Origin: Prochlorococcus sp. AG-463-F15
GTDB lineage: Bacteria; Cyanobacteriota; Cyanobacteriia; PCC-6307; Cyanobiaceae
NCBI GenBank assembly: GCA_003211755.1
Contig: QCRS01000010.1
Span: forward strand, 1 to 33,847
Direction of reading: 5' to 3'
Length of the DNA: 33,847 bases
Below the pieces are notes generated by a model. That model saw only the letters and a list, made by a program, of their open reading frames with translations. It was not told where the DNA came from and made no database searches. The position numbers and the translations under genes are program-made. Shown here one piece after another: positions 2,600-10,851 of this stretch. Position 1 is the stretch's first letter. Each line of letters opens with the position of its first letter.

Positions 2600-3250
2600 A
2601 TGCCTTTTGAGAATCCCCAGCGTCTTACGCGTCGGCGTAGTTCAGCAGGACCAGTTCCACCTAGACGTCCTTTGGGTAATGCTTTAGATGGTATGAATCC
2701 TCATAGACAAGGCCCTAGACCAACTTTTTTGACTCTTAGAGATCACGGAAAAGTCTATGTAGCTGATATGCCAAATTTGTCTGATGGGCAATTGGCTCAT
2801 ATAGGGAATGAAGCTGAAGAGGTTCTCACAAGCCTAGAGCGGCGTCTTAGTGACCTTGAGCGAGAGGCAGCAAATGGTTTGGGAGATAACGACACTTTGA
2901 TTAAGGCATCTACTAAGCGTGATGTCACCCTTCGTTTCATTAGAGCCATTCAAGATGAGCAGGAATATCGTCGCAATAATCCCGCACTAAAAAGTGCAGC
3001 TGCGGAATCTTTGCCGCGTACATTTCTTGAAGTTGCTCGCCATAGGTTGCCTGGGTCAACTTTTGATTCTTTACTTAGAGAAGCTTTGGAAGCCTGTTCA
3101 CAAGAAGAACAGACCAAAGACGAGGCCCCTACACCAGCAGCACCACCACCACCACCACCTGTCAAGGTGATCCCTATTCGCGCAAAGCCCGAAAGTATGC
3201 CTGTTGTAGTAAGTCCAGATCCAAATCTTACAAATACAACAATTGCTTGA
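2600..3250 (+). CDS. Conserved hypothetical protein with Pro-rich C-terminal tail
   Basis: 216 aa ORF with coding-like composition; PAAPPPPPPVK tract near the C-terminus; no recognised domain. Confidence 0.75.
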   Translation: MPFENPQRLTRRRSSAGPVPPRRPLGNALDGMNPHRQGPRPTFLTLRDHGKVYVADMPNLSDGQLAHIGNEAEEVLTSLERRLSDLEREAANGLGDNDTLIKASTKRDVTLRFIRAIQDEQEYRRNNPALKSAAAESLPRTFLEVARHRLPGSTFDSLLREALEACSQEEQTKDEAPTPAAPPPPPPVKVIPIRAKPESMPVVVSPDPNLTNTTIA

Positions 3251-3392
3251 CCCTCAATTATCAATATTTAGGCTCAGAATAGCCGGACTCGGCATTGTTT
3301 AAGCTCTGTCTATTTTTTGTTAAAAGTTCAAGGAAATCATCAATATAATATCACTTATAATAATGTTAATATTTTATAAAATTGCTTTATTC

Positions 3393-3560
3393 ATGGAAAC
3401 TAATCATAAAAATGATAAATTAATTAGCGCTAGAGATAAGCTCGAACCTGGAAAATTTGCATGCTCTAAAAGAGATGATGTACTGTGCAAACTTTGCGGA
3501 AGGACTTTAGAAAATGGAATTAGGTGTCTTGGAATGTGTGTTGCAGAAAGTGATTATTAG
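3393..3560 (+). CDS. Small Cys-rich hypothetical protein (55 aa)
   Basis: Start placed at the internal ATG (METNHKNDK...); C-terminal half CSKRDDVLCKLCGRTLENGIRCLGMC has 5 Cys. ORF track start is 3363. Confidence 0.55.
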   Translation: METNHKNDKLISARDKLEPGKFACSKRDDVLCKLCGRTLENGIRCLGMCVAESDY

Positions 3561-3946
3561 AATCAGATTATTAACCTTTTAAAACTAGAAAGATCTGATT
3601 ATTGGATGATCTAAATAGATAGAATAGGAGTGTTCAACATGCTCTGGGTTCTATGTTGAACTTTTCTTCAATAATTCTATGTATAAGATACTGACTCCAA
3701 GTTTGAATAGATTCAACTTAAAAAATATGTAGTTAAAGATTGACTCAATCCTATTGCATAAGATACTATTGCCGATTCTTTAGATGTATTATTTTCGACT
3801 GAAAAAATTATTTGATTATTAAAGGATTTAAGCAATTACTTTCAAATAGGCATAATCAATATTTTCAAGTGATTGCTTTCTAGTTATTTACCTTGTCAAG
3901 TTCCTCAAAATATTGCACTCTAGTATTTAGTTAAAGGCTTTTCATT

Positions 3947-4336
3947 GTGCCTGACCTAGAACCTTGTTCACGGTGTGGGAGACAGGTTCTGATTTCACAC
4001 TACTCATGGAGTAAGACTCTTGTTATATGCAAGGCTTGCAAAGAGTTGAATACACAGAAACCATCTATTGAAAGATACAATCAAACTTTTAGTGGTAGGG
4101 ATATGCTGGATTCACAATATAGTCCTGCCTCCGGTACAAGTGAACCAGGTTTATCCAGCAAGATTAATCAGCCTAAAAAGGTTCAAGGGGAGATACTTGT
4201 TACTTGGCATGTTTTATTAAAGTTCTCTCTTGTTGGACTATTGATAGCAATATTAGTTATTTCTGGGGTAATTATTAGAAATCATAAGAACAAGGATTTT
4301 CCACTCGAATCACAAATATCAATTGATAGTGATTAG
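3947..4336 (+). CDS. Hypothetical protein with N-terminal CxxC...CxxC zinc-ribbon-like motif and one C-terminal TM helix
   Basis: 129 aa: CSRCGRQVLISHYSWSKTLVICKACKE plus hydrophobic FSLVGLLIAILVISGVII; followed by a terminator hairpin. Confidence 0.6.
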   Translation: MPDLEPCSRCGRQVLISHYSWSKTLVICKACKELNTQKPSIERYNQTFSGRDMLDSQYSPASGTSEPGLSSKINQPKKVQGEILVTWHVLLKFSLVGLLIAILVISGVIIRNHKNKDFPLESQISIDSD

Positions 4337-4355
4337 TGCTAGCATATTTGATTTG

Positions 4356-4400
4356 AAAATATTCTTATGGAAAGATATAATTTCATAAGAATATTTTTTT
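4356..4400. terminator. Hairpin terminator between convergent genes
   Basis: AAAATATTCTTATG (4356-4369) and CATAAGAATATTTT (4384-4397) form a perfect 14-bp stem, followed by T's on +; lies between the + gene ending 4336 and the - gene ending 4399. Confidence 0.85.
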
Positions 4401-4830
4401 ATTCTAATGCGTCGATTATACCTTCAGTAATATAACGCGCCATTTGCATTATATTATTTTCAATTTGCCTTTTAGGTGTGCCCCACTTTGCGGCTATTTT
4501 TTTTGAAAGCTTATTATTTTTTGAGTACCTAATCATACTATTTGCAAGTAGAGGAGGAAGGTCTGCCTTGTTTTCTTCTGCTAGTTTATCCCAAGCCTCT
4601 TTGTCTAATAGGCCAATAGCCTGCATGTCTTCTGTTCCTGAATATTTATATAACTCCAATATTCCCACATATAAGAAACTTTCACCTAATTGATGCAAAG
4701 GACCTGTACTTTCTTCAGATGCTTCATATTGCTTTAACATTAATTCTAGCTCTGACCTTTTTCCCTCTTCACCTTCTTTGGCTGCATTTAGAACCCTATA
4801 AAACTTGCTGAATTCGACTGGTTTTTCCAC
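4399..4830 (-). CDS. Hypothetical protein (143 aa)
   Basis: Charged, soluble ORF MEKPVEFSKFYRVLNAAKEGEEGKRSELELMLKQYEAS...; no recognised domain. Confidence 0.65.
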   Translation of the reverse strand: MEKPVEFSKFYRVLNAAKEGEEGKRSELELMLKQYEASEESTGPLHQLGESFLYVGILELYKYSGTEDMQAIGLLDKEAWDKLAEENKADLPPLLANSMIRYSKNNKLSKKIAAKWGTPKRQIENNIMQMARYITEGIIDALE

Positions 4831-4888
4831 AATGGTGGTAAAGCAATATTGACCATACTACTTAAAGGAGGGATGTTTTCTTGCTAGT

Positions 4889-5074
4889 TCACTTTTGACG
4901 GTTTTCTATATAGAAGGGGTTCGGAATTTGGAAGTGCTTAGGGTTTTTTTGGGGAGAATCTTTGGGATCAATCCAGGTGGCAGTTCTTCGAAGACTATTG
5001 GCGGTAAATGCTCTCAAATCAGGGGAAGTCCAGATGATTAAAACAATGAAGGCTAGGAAGAGGTTTTTTAACAT
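4889..5074 (-). CDS. Small putative membrane-anchored hypothetical protein (61 aa)
   Basis: MLKNLFLAFIVLIIWTSPDLRAFTANSLRRTATWI...: N-terminal hydrophobic helix then a conserved-looking 'WTSPDxRxxTAxxLRxTA' segment. Confidence 0.55.
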   Translation of the reverse strand: MLKNLFLAFIVLIIWTSPDLRAFTANSLRRTATWIDPKDSPQKNPKHFQIPNPFYIENRQK

Positions 5075-5485
5075 GTCAGGTCATCCACTCAAAGGTCTTT
5101 GTTCGTTTCATTGAAGAAGAGATTTTCGTTTTTGTAAGTACTTTTAAGTCCATTCAATCGCCCCACCCTGTCCCTGTTAAACAATCTTTGGACTTGCTTT
5201 TAGCCTTCTCTTCAAGCAAGTTGATTTGAATTGGCTGAAGATCTAGCTCCCAAGCCATGTATGGCTCAACCCTGTTCCCTTCTGTCATAGAGGTGTTTAT
5301 CTATTGTTGTTCAACAATCATCCTTAGGATTTTGGATAGATCAAGCCCTGTTTGTTCTCGAAGGTTTTGTCCGACCCTTTAAATTAATTATCACTGCTTA
5401 TGCTTGGCTGAAATAATTTTGCAATTAATAATTCATCAATGGGAAAATTGCTGGCAGGGTTTCTGTATGAAGTTGAGTTGTTGAA

Positions 5486-5974: not shown

Positions 5975-6003
5975 TTGCAAGAAAGAATTAGAACTGTTAT
6001 ACG
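5975..6003 (+). promoter_or_regulatory. Candidate sigma70-type promoter for the sRNA at ~6006
   Basis: TTGCAA (5975-5980), 16-17 nt spacer, TG-TTATAC(G) (5997-6003); predicted TSS just upstream of or at ACTCCTCACAC. Confidence 0.45.
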
Positions 6004-6059
6004 ACACTCCTCACACAAGTCTGTCGGTATGGACGCTGCTCGATGAGGGCGTCCTTTTT
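6004..6059 (+). ncRNA. Candidate short sRNA with Yfr1-type motif and intrinsic terminator
   Basis: ACTCCTCACAC at 6006-6016 (the Yfr1 signature); GGACGC (6031-6036)/GCGTCC (6049-6054) stem with inner CTC/GAG, followed by TTTTT (6055-6059); no ORF here. Confidence 0.5.
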
Positions 6060-6241
6060 CATGCCTGATATGCGATTTGCTTAGAACACTTTCGCTATCC
6101 CTGGCTAGATGTAAATCTAATTAGGGCTTGGCTTTTCAGGAGATAAGCCTAGCCTGCATGGGGAATTCTCGTTTTTTATTCACGACTAGAGAAAATATTC
6201 ATAGTACTAGTATACTATAAGCATTAAGTGATCAATCCACT

Positions 6242-6586: not shown

Positions 6587-6898
6587 GGACAAGGTATTAG
6601 ACGTAGAACTAGAGCATTAGGCAAGAGAAAGATTTTCTGTGAAAATGGTTTGCTTTTGTCAGGTGGTAGATCATGGACAACTATTCGCCATACGGCGTTA
6701 CGTCTAACCCTTGAAGAGGTTCCTGAGTTAGGTATCCGTCCTGACATCAATGCCTTTGCCTCTAATGCTCATACGAGTGCTTCGATGCTTAGAAAGACCT
6801 ATCTGAATTACATGGACGCAGAGAAAACTGCTGAGAAAGCACGAACAAAAATCAAACCAAGTGAATACTCACTGGTAGGTAACACCAAGGACAAATGA
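6587..6898 (+). pseudogene. C-terminal remnant of a tyrosine recombinase/phage integrase
   Basis: In-frame GQGIRRRTRALGKRKIFCENGLLLSGGRSWTTIRHTALRLTLEEVPELGIRPDINAFASNAHTSASMLRKTYLNYMDAEKTA: TIRHTALR box and candidate catalytic Tyr in MLRKTYLNYM. In-frame TAG at 6584-6586; no upstream catalytic domain. Confidence 0.6.
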
Positions 6899-7071
6899 TA
6901 CGTTTTCTTCTCATCGCTTTATTGCTTCTTCCCTTACCCGCTATGGCAGCAACCAAGTACTTCATTCAATACCAAGATCAATTTGGTAAATGGCGTGATA
7001 AACATACTAATTTAGTTAATCAAATTAAAGAAAATCAACTTGAAGATAAAATAGACTTAGATTGGCATTGA
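6895..7071 (+). CDS. Small putative secreted protein (58 aa)
   Basis: ATG overlaps the stop of the integrase fragment; MIRFLLIALLLLPLPAMAATKYFIQYQDQFGKWRDKHTNLVNQIKENQLEDKIDLDWH has a signal-peptide-like N-terminus (AMA-A). Below the ORF-track length cutoff. Confidence 0.5.
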   Translation: MIRFLLIALLLLPLPAMAATKYFIQYQDQFGKWRDKHTNLVNQIKENQLEDKIDLDWH

Positions 7072-7108
7072 ATTATAGAAGTTATTTATAGTTTAAGTAT
7101 TATTTATT

Positions 7109-7330
7109 TTATTTAAACTTTTCAAGAAGATCTCCAATATTTGAACATTTTGAGTATTCTTCATAAGTTAGGTTAGAATTAATTTCATCAGCAAGAGAAA
7201 CGAAAATATTCATATTAGCTAGAGAATCCCATTCGATTAGATCTTGTGGTGTTGTTGAATTATCAAGCTTCGAAATATCTATATCTAAAATGGAAGATAT
7301 AATTTCTAAAATCTTTTCTTTACTATTCAT
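7109..7330 (-). CDS. Stand-alone acyl carrier protein (PP-binding)
   Basis: 73 aa; MNSKEKILEIISSILDIDISKLDNSTTPQDLIEWDSLANMNIFVSLADEIN...: DSL phosphopantetheine attachment motif and ACP helical pattern. Confidence 0.85.
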   Translation of the reverse strand: MNSKEKILEIISSILDIDISKLDNSTTPQDLIEWDSLANMNIFVSLADEINSNLTYEEYSKCSNIGDLLEKFK

Positions 7331-8345
7331 CAGTATATTCCAAGTTGTATTGTTTTCTTAATTTTAACATGTGCATTGATGTTTGAGACTGAACTTCTTT
7401 CACTTTGAAATCAACATCAAATAAACCTTGCTTACGCAACTGACTAGAATCAATTATGACTTTCAAATAAGATATATATACGTCTTCTGATAACTTTTCT
7501 ATGAATGGTAAATCAATTGAAAATTCATTTGAAATTATGACTGGAAAGATTACAAAAATTCTATTACTACCGTTAAAATTAAGATAATGCCGCCATTTAT
7601 CTATAGCAATAAGCATGATTTTTCTCTTGGATTTGAAATTCTTCTTAGATGTTGGCCTGGATAAGTGGAAATAATCCGTAGGTCTATTTTTTATATTTTT
7701 TAAAATTTTATTGTCTTGACAAGTAATATTTATCTTGCCATTATATATATCTAAAGAATTGCAATGCGTAAAAAAATAATGAGCAGAATTTGTTGTTAGT
7801 AGCTCCCTGTCTTTCCATGATGAAAAACTTGCCGTTGTTTTTCTTAGATAACCATATTTAAGACCTGGATTTGTCCATCTTCTATTCAACCAAGTCAAAT
7901 GATTAACCCTATAAAAATATTTCTTCTTTGACTTCCTACTTATATAGTATTCGTTCATAACTATAGGTTTACGAATTAAAAAATTTAAAAAACTATCTTT
8001 CACTGTATCGGTTAATAATTTAAAAATAGAATAAATTTTATTATGTTTTTTATTTAGGTATGACTTTATTTTGCTAAATCTCTTTTGTTTAATGTAAGTG
8101 CTATTTTGTATCTTTTCATAAATCTTATAAATTATCGGAATTAGTCCTGAATTCTTACAATTTAGAGTTCCGATGTCTAATTTATTTACATTACCTTCAA
8201 TAATTGTATTCAGCAAATAACAATGAGCATCAAGATCTCCATAACAACCGTCGAAAAATGAAGGCTGTTCAATTTTATTACTTATAAGCTTAAAGAGACG
8301 ATGTGCAGAGCATCTATGCCCAATCGTTATCATATTTCGTTTCAT
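7323..8345 (-). CDS. Uncharacterised protein of the ACP/acyl-CoA-synthetase operon
   Basis: 340 aa; MITIGHRCSAHRLFKLI...PSFFDGCYGDLDAHCYLL...; stop overlaps the ACP start by 8 nt and start overlaps the upstream gene stop. Weak resemblance to the N-terminal Cys...FD pattern of DUF1796 (papain-like), not established. Confidence 0.8.
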   Translation of the reverse strand: MKRNMITIGHRCSAHRLFKLISNKIEQPSFFDGCYGDLDAHCYLLNTIIEGNVNKLDIGTLNCKNSGLIPIIYKIYEKIQNSTYIKQKRFSKIKSYLNKKHNKIYSIFKLLTDTVKDSFLNFLIRKPIVMNEYYISRKSKKKYFYRVNHLTWLNRRWTNPGLKYGYLRKTTASFSSWKDRELLTTNSAHYFFTHCNSLDIYNGKINITCQDNKILKNIKNRPTDYFHLSRPTSKKNFKSKRKIMLIAIDKWRHYLNFNGSNRIFVIFPVIISNEFSIDLPFIEKLSEDVYISYLKVIIDSSQLRKQGLFDVDFKVKEVQSQTSMHMLKLRKQYNLEYTDE

Positions 8346-10171
8346 TAGATCAGAATGAAATTATAATTAGAACCATCAAATCTATTTTTACCTTGAAATT
8401 TGTGCTTTCTATCTCTTAAATTAACTGCAAATTTATTCGCTTCTTTTCTGATATCTTTTCGAAGGATCTTCCCACTTTTGCTCTTAGGAATTTTTTGACT
8501 TTCATAAAACCTTCTAACTATAAAAGCTGAACTAGATGCAGTGCAAATATTTTTTCTAAGTTCACTTTTCAAAATAGATTTAGTATAGCCTTTCCTAAGA
8601 GTTAGTCCGATACATAATAAAATATTATCCATATCATCATGCATTGTAAAAGCGACTGCTTCCTGTATATGTTCATCTGTAGAAAGACAAACTGATTCTA
8701 TAAAAGTAGAACTAATATTTTTACCCTGAATTATAATTATGTCATCTGACCTTCCATTCACATATAAATAATTTTCTTGAATACTACCTATATCAGAAAG
8801 GCGATAGTATCCATTATTTGTTATGTATTTTTTAATTGAGCTGTATTCTCCAAAGAAATGATTTGCGCATCCTGGCCAAGGATTTTTTACGAGCAGTTCA
8901 GACTCTTCATATCTATCCTTGCTAGATATTGATAGGTAGTTAGATATGGGTCCGATTGCATCAGAAGGACATGTCTTATCCTCATTGGCTCTATTTGCAC
9001 AAAGAATCCCCCCTGTTTCTGTTTGAAAGTAAGTATTAACAACAGGTTGCTTTTTGTCGCCAAGATATGTTTTCGCATACCATTCTTTGAGGGATGGAGC
9101 TAAAGGTTCTCCCATAGAACCAATCGCTCTTATATGACTTAAATCATTCTCTATTGAACCAATGGATTTCTTTAATCTTATTAATGCTACAGGTAAGTAA
9201 AAACAATTTGCTTTTGTTTCCTTAATCACCATTGAGGATAAATCCACACCAGAAAGTGCACTTGGGTCATCAATTAAAATAGTTTTACCTCCACATAAAA
9301 GCGGTCCAAATAAGGAATATGTGTGACCATTTATCCATCCAGCATCAGAAGCGCAGAACATAGTTTCACCTGAAGAGAAGTTCCAGAAGTATTTAGTTGT
9401 GAAATATGAAAACAATAGATATCCTACTCGCGAGTGAACTATTCCTTTAGGCATTCCTGTTGATCCTGAAGTAAAAAGCGCAAACATTGATGAATTACTA
9501 TCTATTCCCAGAGGATTATCCTTTTTTATATAATCTAAACCTCTTTTATACATAATTAAATGAGATATTGAATCCTTACGATCAATTTTTTTAATTTCAT
9601 TAAAGCCAATTTCCATTAATTTTTGATGCTGGGATATGCTTGGATTTGCAGTAAAAATTATTGCTCTAGGAGACAACATTTCAACTCTTCTTATAATTTC
9701 TTCGGCTTGAATACTTCTAAAACATATTGAAAATATTACTTTTAGGGATGCTGAGGAAAGCATTAAGCCTGCCATTTCAATTCCATGGTCGCCTATAAGA
9801 AGAACTTTGTCATTACTTTGCAATCCTTCATTGTTAAACCAATTAGAAAAGTTTAAGACAATATTATTTAGATCTGAATAACTAAATTTTTCAATAGATT
9901 TACTCTTGGTTTTTACTGAATATATAGCTATTTCATTTGACCAGCCCTTTTCAATATACCTTTTGATGCATAATTCTATTGGGTTTATACTTTCTCCTTT
10001 AAACCATTGTCCAAAAGGAAAATTTAGTGTGGAAATATTATTGATTTTATTTGATTTTGGATTTTTATTTACTTGAGTATTTAAATCCCATACATTCGTA
10101 GGGTATCTCCCAACTAATTCCTTGAATTGTTCTTTCCAAAAATCCTTGGTTGTTGAGTCTATTTGGAACAC
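8345..10171 (-). CDS. AMP-dependent acyl-CoA synthetase/ligase, acetyl-CoA-synthetase-like
   Basis: 608 aa; AMP-binding motifs ALFTSGSTGMPKGIVHS, YFQTETGG, YRLSDIGSI...YVNGRSDDIIIIQGKNIS, C-terminal IPKSKSGKILRKDIRKEA; N-terminal GQWFKGESINPIELCIKRYI is ACS-like. Confidence 0.9.
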   Translation of the reverse strand: MFQIDSTTKDFWKEQFKELVGRYPTNVWDLNTQVNKNPKSNKINNISTLNFPFGQWFKGESINPIELCIKRYIEKGWSNEIAIYSVKTKSKSIEKFSYSDLNNIVLNFSNWFNNEGLQSNDKVLLIGDHGIEMAGLMLSSASLKVIFSICFRSIQAEEIIRRVEMLSPRAIIFTANPSISQHQKLMEIGFNEIKKIDRKDSISHLIMYKRGLDYIKKDNPLGIDSNSSMFALFTSGSTGMPKGIVHSRVGYLLFSYFTTKYFWNFSSGETMFCASDAGWINGHTYSLFGPLLCGGKTILIDDPSALSGVDLSSMVIKETKANCFYLPVALIRLKKSIGSIENDLSHIRAIGSMGEPLAPSLKEWYAKTYLGDKKQPVVNTYFQTETGGILCANRANEDKTCPSDAIGPISNYLSISSKDRYEESELLVKNPWPGCANHFFGEYSSIKKYITNNGYYRLSDIGSIQENYLYVNGRSDDIIIIQGKNISSTFIESVCLSTDEHIQEAVAFTMHDDMDNILLCIGLTLRKGYTKSILKSELRKNICTASSSAFIVRRFYESQKIPKSKSGKILRKDIRKEANKFAVNLRDRKHKFQGKNRFDGSNYNFILI

Positions 10172-10624
10172 TTGTCATATCCAATCGATAGCATTCTAAC
10201 CTGTAAATCTATAACATATTAAATTATTATTTTATCAGGACAATAGGTAGAATCTTTTTTCATTTTTTTAGATTTTCGAAGTCCCATCGTTTCAATCACT
10301 CGAAAATCTCCCAATAGAAAAGAAAAGGTGAAGAAGAACTTTTATGAATTCATACTTTTATTTAACGTCCAATTTAAAATAGTAAGTAGAAAAGATCTAT
10401 TTCAATATTAGATATGGGGTGACTTGTAGCATAGAGATAATTCGTTAGAGGTTTATTTATTGGATTGCATTCTCAAGAAATATGTTTTGAAGTCTTTATA
10501 CCCATCTTTGGTTAGAGAGGCCTTCTAACTCTGGTACTTGCTTTGGATTGAAACTAATTTTCCTAATAATGCAAAATGCAATTCTCCTGTATATCGAAAC
10601 AAGCCAGAGTGCAGGTAATGACTT

Positions 10625-10694
10625 GGTGGTACACAGACGGCATACTGAAAATAGGGCGATGGTACTAGCCGTGTACCACCTATGTACCACCACC
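10625..10694. repeat. Inverted/direct repeat cluster GGTGGTACAC ... GTGTACCACC TA TGTACCACC ACC
   Basis: GGTGGTACAC at 10625-10634 is the exact reverse complement of GTGTACCACC at 10671-10680; a third TGTACCACC at 10683-10691. Confidence 0.85.
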
Positions 10695-10780
10695 ATTTAT
10701 GGCGAAAAGAATTAGAAAAAGAGATCTAATAATTGAGTTCTTGCAACTGATCACAGGGATCGGTAACAAGAAAGGTAAGA

Positions 10781-10851
10781 AGGCGGCACCCAGATTCGAA
10801 CTGGGGATAAAGGATTTGCAATCCTCTGCCTTACCACTTGGCCATGCCGCC
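10781..10851 (-). tRNA. trnC: tRNA-Cys (GCA)
   Basis: Reverse complement GGCGGCA TG GCCAAGTGGTAAGGC A GAGGATTGCAAATCCTT TATC CCCAGTTCGAATCTGGG TGCCGCC T folds as a cloverleaf; anticodon loop TTGCAAA. Confidence 0.97.

Follow-up and report, generated by a model that had tools for sequence, protein, structure and literature searches.

Gene content of the tRNA-Cys locus

The window, the whole 33,847-nt stretch of DNA analysed here (contig QCRS01000010.1 of Prochlorococcus sp. AG-463-F15), belongs to a fragmentary assembly of 69 contigs that is 55% complete. Its tRNA-Cys lay in a frame that was conserved in the loci compared, with the order purM, grx2600 (our label only, for the gene at 2600-3250), a variable interval, tRNA-Cys, an lpxB-like gene and rnd. 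The frame comparison covered 80 loci taken at the lpxB-like gene, the majority of them from Prochlorococcus and Synechococcus, together with loci fetched for integrase matches. The features of the window at this site were as follows.

3363-5074: native block (o3363, zf3947, h4402, h4889), wholly or partly common to the same-genus loci L143, L146 and L147
5304-5369, minus strand: weak candidate for a small serine recombinase tail (22 aa at 59%, E = 5e-4)
5985-6060, plus strand: Yfr10-like sRNA candidate with a ACACTCCTCACAC motif in a stem loop, followed by a terminator (literature, PMC6778093)
6242-6496, plus strand: DUF1651 gene (PF07864, E = 5e-26), of a type frequent in islands at the tRNA-Cys site
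6656-6898, plus strand: C-terminal ~78 residues of an integrase (WTTIRHTALR ... NAHTS ... KTYLNY); ~385 N-terminal residues (~85%) of the ~470-aa enzyme are missing
6895-7071, plus strand: ORF for a small secreted protein, possibly a shortened element gene, whose start overlaps the integrase stop (ATGA)
7109-7330, minus strand: acyl carrier protein (ACP)-like, 73 aa (PF00550, E = 7e-4, just under the cut-off; NCBIfam ACP, E = 9e-5), 26.1% GC
7323-8345, minus strand: 340-aa protein without a family match, 27.5% GC
8345-10171, minus strand: AMP-binding acyl/acetyl-CoA-synthetase (ACS)-like protein, 608 aa (PF00501, E = 1e-41), 31.6% GC
10569-10617, plus strand: 3' tail of an element gene (..KCNSPVYRNKPECR); L040 has a long, intact version of it in this position
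10625-10633, plus strand: arm repeat GGTGGTACA in inverted orientation
10661-10669, minus strand: third, degenerate repeat unit GCTAGTACC in the same 11-bp register (match 10661-10680, 3 mismatches)
10672-10691, minus strand: candidate right-end arm-site pair GGTGGTACA-ta-GGTGGTACA, with 11-bp spacing, beginning 89 bp from the tRNA 3' end
10781-10851, minus strand: intact tRNA-Cys(GCA), 3' end at 10781 (ARAGORN and Rfam); the integration target, with its 3' half as the core att site; in intact relatives its final 22-33 nt recur at the distal end

The first-pass annotation had placed a recombinase remnant, AT-rich cargo and a repeat cluster all on the 3' side of tRNA-Cys, and the coordinates agree. 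It had also seen no partial copy of tRNA-Cys; a search at up to 3 mismatches returned tRNA-Cys itself as the sole match, and a second or truncated copy was absent from the window.

The integrase remnant and its family

The stub matched positions 386-463 of 465 in a profile built from 15 intact integrases (E = 3.3e-29), and its best relative was 71-72% identical over 65 aa. The recombinase C-terminal remnant proposed earlier at 6587-6898 was thus borne out, but the homology to the intact relatives started only at about 6656-6662, inside an open frame running from about 6587. The integrase relatives were in the same orientation and occupied either the interval from purM-grx2600 to tRNA-Cys or a place next to tRNA-Phe. 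In the integrase tree the target tRNA labels were more clustered than in shuffles (2 changes versus 6.0 expected); no placement was obtainable for the stub of the window in this tree.

Alignment of the integrases by eye showed that R282, K310, R388 and Y426 were invariant, that position 416 was mostly His, and that the residue before R388 where His is expected was Thr. Of this catalytic set, the final Arg, the His and the Tyr are all that the stub retains. Comparison of the family profile with seven ordinary tyrosine recombinases using hhalign gave no link, the AlphaFold model of an intact integrase (mean pLDDT 36) was discarded, and a PDB sequence search with the profile returned a chance match only, while the integrases of the intact relatives had no score against Pfam, PHROGs and NCBIfam models. 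Since hhalign was negative and the models were useless, the class was assigned from the order of the residues and the literature, which point to a tyrosine recombinase.

The small ORF overlapping the integrase stop shares the motif QYQDQFG..W with an element ORF of L136, and in the intact element L150 a related small ORF likewise overlaps the integrase stop. Another broken integrase was found near the same native genes in G003, a genome of the same genus. Elsewhere in the genome of the window, a canonical Phage_integrase gene was observed as a 353-aa open frame (G000:C36:8546-9016, L221; E = 4e-31). Separately, five larger-genome picocyanobacteria (L203-L207, with fragments also in L201 and L211) carry ORFs of ~235-265 aa next to tRNA-Phe that correspond to the N-terminal half of the integrase only; these may be a DNA-binding half that was kept, or a relic.

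Intact relatives carry att duplications and paired end repeats

An att duplication was present at all 18 loci that have a full-length integrase and a tRNA downstream of it (11 tRNA-Cys and 7 tRNA-Phe). The elements in these 18 genomes were 4.4-10.7 kb long, and at the far border, just upstream of the integrase start, the 3' end of the tRNA was repeated over 22-36 bp. A small serine recombinase was present in 13 of the 14 intact elements examined. Paired repeats of ~9 nt with 11-bp spacing were found at both ends in 16 elements, in most cases accompanied by an inverted copy. In most elements the left pair lay 76-80 bp inward from the distal att. The distances of the right pair from the tRNA 3' end fell into discrete classes of about 63-66, 84-97 and 118-120 bp, which suggests helical phasing. 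The repeat sequence was specific to the element, with a mean distance of 0.98 between the two ends of one element versus 2.94 between elements (0/2000 permutations). In the MIT 0701 element (L022; integrase at L022:3322-4701), for example, the arm pairs are GGAAGGTGA. The two ends of L126 differ, and L126 looks like a composite element.

Lambda Int has an N-terminal arm-binding domain and uses arm-type sites. The intact elements resemble the lambda type of integration in having a core site with paired and inverted repeats at both ends, and their ~470-aa integrase has an N-terminal region that appears large enough for an arm-binding domain. They differ from it in their tandem 9-nt candidate arm sites, which are element-specific and spaced at 11 bp. 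By analogy with lambda Int, the paired repeats would be bound by the integrase.

The right end of the element in the window

The sequence at 10672-10691 reads GGTGGTACAtaGGTGGTACA on the minus strand, for which 0 matches were expected in shuffles, and the score of the right end was unequalled in 500 dinucleotide shuffles of that end. The repeat cluster noted earlier at 10625-10694 therefore proved non-random (0/500 shuffles as good), with limits of 10625-10691. The +89 position and the 11-bp spacing of the pair fall into a class (86-89 bp) that also occurs in intact elements and mini-elements. Judged from its sequence, the cluster is the putative right-end arm site of the element of the window. 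No left-end arm repeats were found in the window by a repeat search and a shuffle-scored end scan.

The segment 10569-10890 was 94% identical in DNA to L040 (AG-409-L18), a distant genome, whereas the adjacent lpxB-like proteins of the two genomes were only 60% identical, which argues that the right end moved horizontally. The interior differs from that of L040 or was rebuilt later.

Between this cluster and the tRNA, a conserved segment of the plus strand (10699-10780) would encode M[AP]KRIRKRDLIIEFLQL.. and runs antisense to the 3' flank of tRNA-Cys. The M[AP]KRIRKRDLIIEFLQL.. stretch was observed at the same place in many loci, in elements as well as at some empty sites, and differences in this candidate ORF were overall not biased to synonymous ones.

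The probable cargo cassette

The three genes between the integrase stub and the right end had been described as AT-rich cargo at 7109-10171, and their composition agrees with this (26.1, 27.5 and 31.6% GC for the ACP, the 340-aa protein and the ACS); the neighbouring lpxB-like gene has 42.9% GC. The synthetase-like protein scored below every NCBIfam equivalog cut-off among the matches listed. The 340-aa protein had no Pfam, PHROG or NCBIfam match, was found only in its own genome among 400 genomes of the family, and gave no match against 72,556 plasmid records. A marginal match was seen in another cyanobacterial family (E = 1.6e-4, ~63 aa, two stops), and its AlphaFold model (mean pLDDT 32) was discarded.

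At the place of this cassette the intact relatives carry other, surface-modification genes, their variable large genes coding for GSCFA, arylsulfotransferase, sulfotransferase and acyltransferase-3/SGNH proteins. Cell-surface chemistry is a common cargo theme of the intact elements, and an acyl-activation cassette would fit it. The three-gene acyl-activation cassette is most likely the cargo of the element. The ACS/ACP cassette had been named cargo before; its position between the stub and the right end held up, and the claim is plausible. Since the cassette turned up in no intact element, its cargo status was judged from position and composition.

The cassette could also have entered an already dead element by homologous recombination or with another element, which we regard as possible but rather unlikely. 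At 26-32%, its GC content falls below the 44% of the integrase remnant and the 41.5% of the right end, it occupies the place where the gene intact in L040 was lost, and no relative of it was found at the tRNA-Cys site in other loci. Against such a separate entry, the cassette lies exactly between the stub and the right end, where the intact relatives also carry unrelated cargo (GSCFA, sulfotransferases, acyltransferase-3/SGNH), and the same site commonly holds mini-elements with a GC content of 26-32%.

The left boundary

The sRNA candidate had no Rfam match; it is conserved in L143 and occurs twice in L123, and the window was 90% identical to L143 over 5982-6067. The 3.5 kb interval of L143 contains the native genes and the sRNA segment but neither an integrase nor arms. 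The native part of the window therefore extends at least to 6067, with the sRNA segment as the last native chromosome marker left of the element, and the surviving element starts between 6068 and 6656. Homologs of the DUF1651 gene located in this range were found inside the elements L126, L130, L131 and L135. Further left, the serine recombinase tail at 5304-5369 was rejected as a firm call, being too weak (2.8 bits to the profile); if real, it is perhaps from an older element.

Variation at the tRNA-Cys site

Intervals shorter than 2.6 kb were found at 42 of the 77 distinct measurable loci; none of these 42 contained an integrase, and 39 of them had no arm-like repeats. Intact integrases were confined to long intervals among the 77 loci, a distribution with a partial bias, as the presence of an integrase was the reason for fetching some of the loci. 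The site is thus variable at tRNA-Cys across relatives, as the first-pass annotation would lead one to expect. Right ends without an integrase were also found in L029, L030, L033, L034, L045 and L144, which indicates that such decay recurs. In L030, a tandem accretion was observed: a copy of the tRNA-Cys 3' end lies 0.9 kb away from the tRNA gene, and a second right end, which is degenerate, comes after that copy.

Among the 77 loci, 14 long intervals had neither an integrase nor clear arms, so not all variation at the site comes from this integrase family. These intervals would suit a general recombination hotspot in which the stub and the repeats are relics unrelated to the present content. 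We consider this quite improbable for the window, given the 94% identity of its right end to that of a distant genome and the complete elements with att duplications at the same site.

The copy in the window is not mobile, as the distal att and the left arms are missing and the integrase is truncated. The best explanation, which we hold with high confidence, is that the 6.1-10.8 kb region is a decayed, immobile member of an integrase-defined kind of picocyanobacterial element that docks at the 3' end of tRNA-Cys, with the left end deleted and the integrase stub and likely cargo stranded. A degraded tyrosine-recombinase element at this position had been postulated from the window, and the intact relatives at the same site, with their att duplications and paired end repeats, substantiate it. 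In the proposed mechanism, the integrase would bind the paired repeats as arm-type sites through its N-terminal part in the manner of lambda Int, bring both ends together and recombine the tRNA-derived cores; integration would restore the tRNA and deposit a copy of its 3' end at the other border. In the window, the tRNA-side end would have been left intact and the opposite one deleted, together with its att copy, its arms and ~85% of the integrase, so that the stub and the three-gene cassette would remain stranded in the chromosome. Functional roles throughout are predicted from sequence. A chimeric join in the window may be present if the assembly is an amplified single-cell genome.

Relation to known mobile elements

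A novel integrase family of Prochlorococcus and Synechococcus, encoded beside tRNA-Phe or tRNA-Cys and often near a small serine recombinase, is described in PMC10187409, which treats it as distinct from the tycheposon integrases and gives the mobilization mechanism as unknown. The present elements resemble that element (EFAM cluster158946) in their divergent integrase missed by standard models, the tRNA-Cys/Phe site, the serine recombinase, the variable cargo and the hosts, and the integrase family analysed here fits the one in that paper by site, hosts, neighbours and invisibility to models. The tRNA beside the element required by that account is present in the window as tRNA-Cys; the copy of the window differs in lacking the left end and most of the integrase. 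The att copies and paired end repeats seen in the relatives are not mentioned in the available part of PMC10187409.

The first-pass annotation had called the element tycheposon-like. Tycheposons are described by a tRNA and a recombinase, with seven tycheposon tRNAs (PMC10872708), and a decayed tycheposon would match the Prochlorococcus-type host, the tRNA at the border (tRNA-Cys), the tyrosine-recombinase-like remnant and the variable cargo, features shared with the tycheposons of Hackl et al. 2023. The matching integrases, however, belong to a different clade according to PMC10187409, which sets the tRNA-Cys/Phe family with its nearby serine recombinase apart, and for this reason the tycheposon label is not supported. 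The failure of the intact relatives to score against Pfam, PHROGs and NCBIfam models also speaks against it, and a decayed tycheposon appears very improbable.

A remnant of a prophage or phage satellite is extremely improbable. Both typically integrate at tRNA genes, and L136 carries primase-like and superinfection-exclusion-like ORFs. Among the proteins tested from the element of the window and its relatives, however, no structural or packaging genes were found; an integrase relative was unconfirmed in the IMG/VR protein search, and 50,697 phage records gave only two DNA matches of ~73 bp, both at the tRNA stretch. A search of IMG/VR by the arm pattern returned 14 contigs, none (0/14) with integrase homology. 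The window contains the remains of an already known, little understood kind of mobile DNA.

Integrase-free mini-elements

A scan of 400 genomes of the family for copies of the tRNA-Cys 3' end identified a second copy 0.6-2.6 kb from tRNA-Cys, with no integrase homology inside, in 14 genomes of genus g18, a Prochlorococcus-type genus, and in 1 genome of another (L226-L239, L241; also L092). The cargo of these mini-elements, of which L228 for example is 1.1 kb long, is small and includes polysaccharide-export-like, TPR and secreted proteins. A left arm pair with at most 1 mismatch was found 78-79 bp inside the distal att in 12 of 15 mini-elements (shuffles: mean 0.05, maximum 1), and the left unit was recognisable at the right end in 13 of 15 (shuffles: mean 1.2, maximum 6). 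L226 shares its arm motif with L198, as do L230 and L236 with L197, L197 and L198 being integrase-encoding elements of the same genus. No same-genus integrase was found when searched directly in two mini-element genomes, a search run without a positive control, and the mini-element genomes were not listed in the search of the 400 genomes with the stub of the window.

As integrase-free DNA between two att sites, L226-L239 and L241 resemble CIMEs, the cis-mobilizable derivatives of ICEs. They differ from CIMEs in that no conjugative parent was seen and that some share arm motifs with integrase-encoding elements of other same-genus genomes. The window, having one end only, is not a CIME. The likeliest reading of their sequences is that the mini-elements are non-autonomous cassettes moved in trans; they may instead be deletion relics that can no longer move.

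Implications

These observations can be joined in a two-tier system at tRNA-Cys, to which we give about an even chance. Integrase-encoding elements with lambda-like, element-specific tandem arms would be accompanied by integrase-free 0.6-2.6 kb cassettes, which share the att and, for the most part, the arm geometry and would be moved in trans by integrases from the elements of other cells. Divergence of the arms would define compatibility groups for the cassettes, and where the far end is lost, as in the window, the cargo would become fixed in the chromosome. If this model is right, the att copies, the end repeats and the integrase-free cassettes predict the sequences that the integrase binds and joins, and the mobilization question raised in PMC10187409 becomes a testable model. 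The elements would then make small additions to, and deletions from, the gene content of Prochlorococcus-type genomes, a source of change that is overlooked by integrase-based searches, and the window would be one fossil of their movement and decay.
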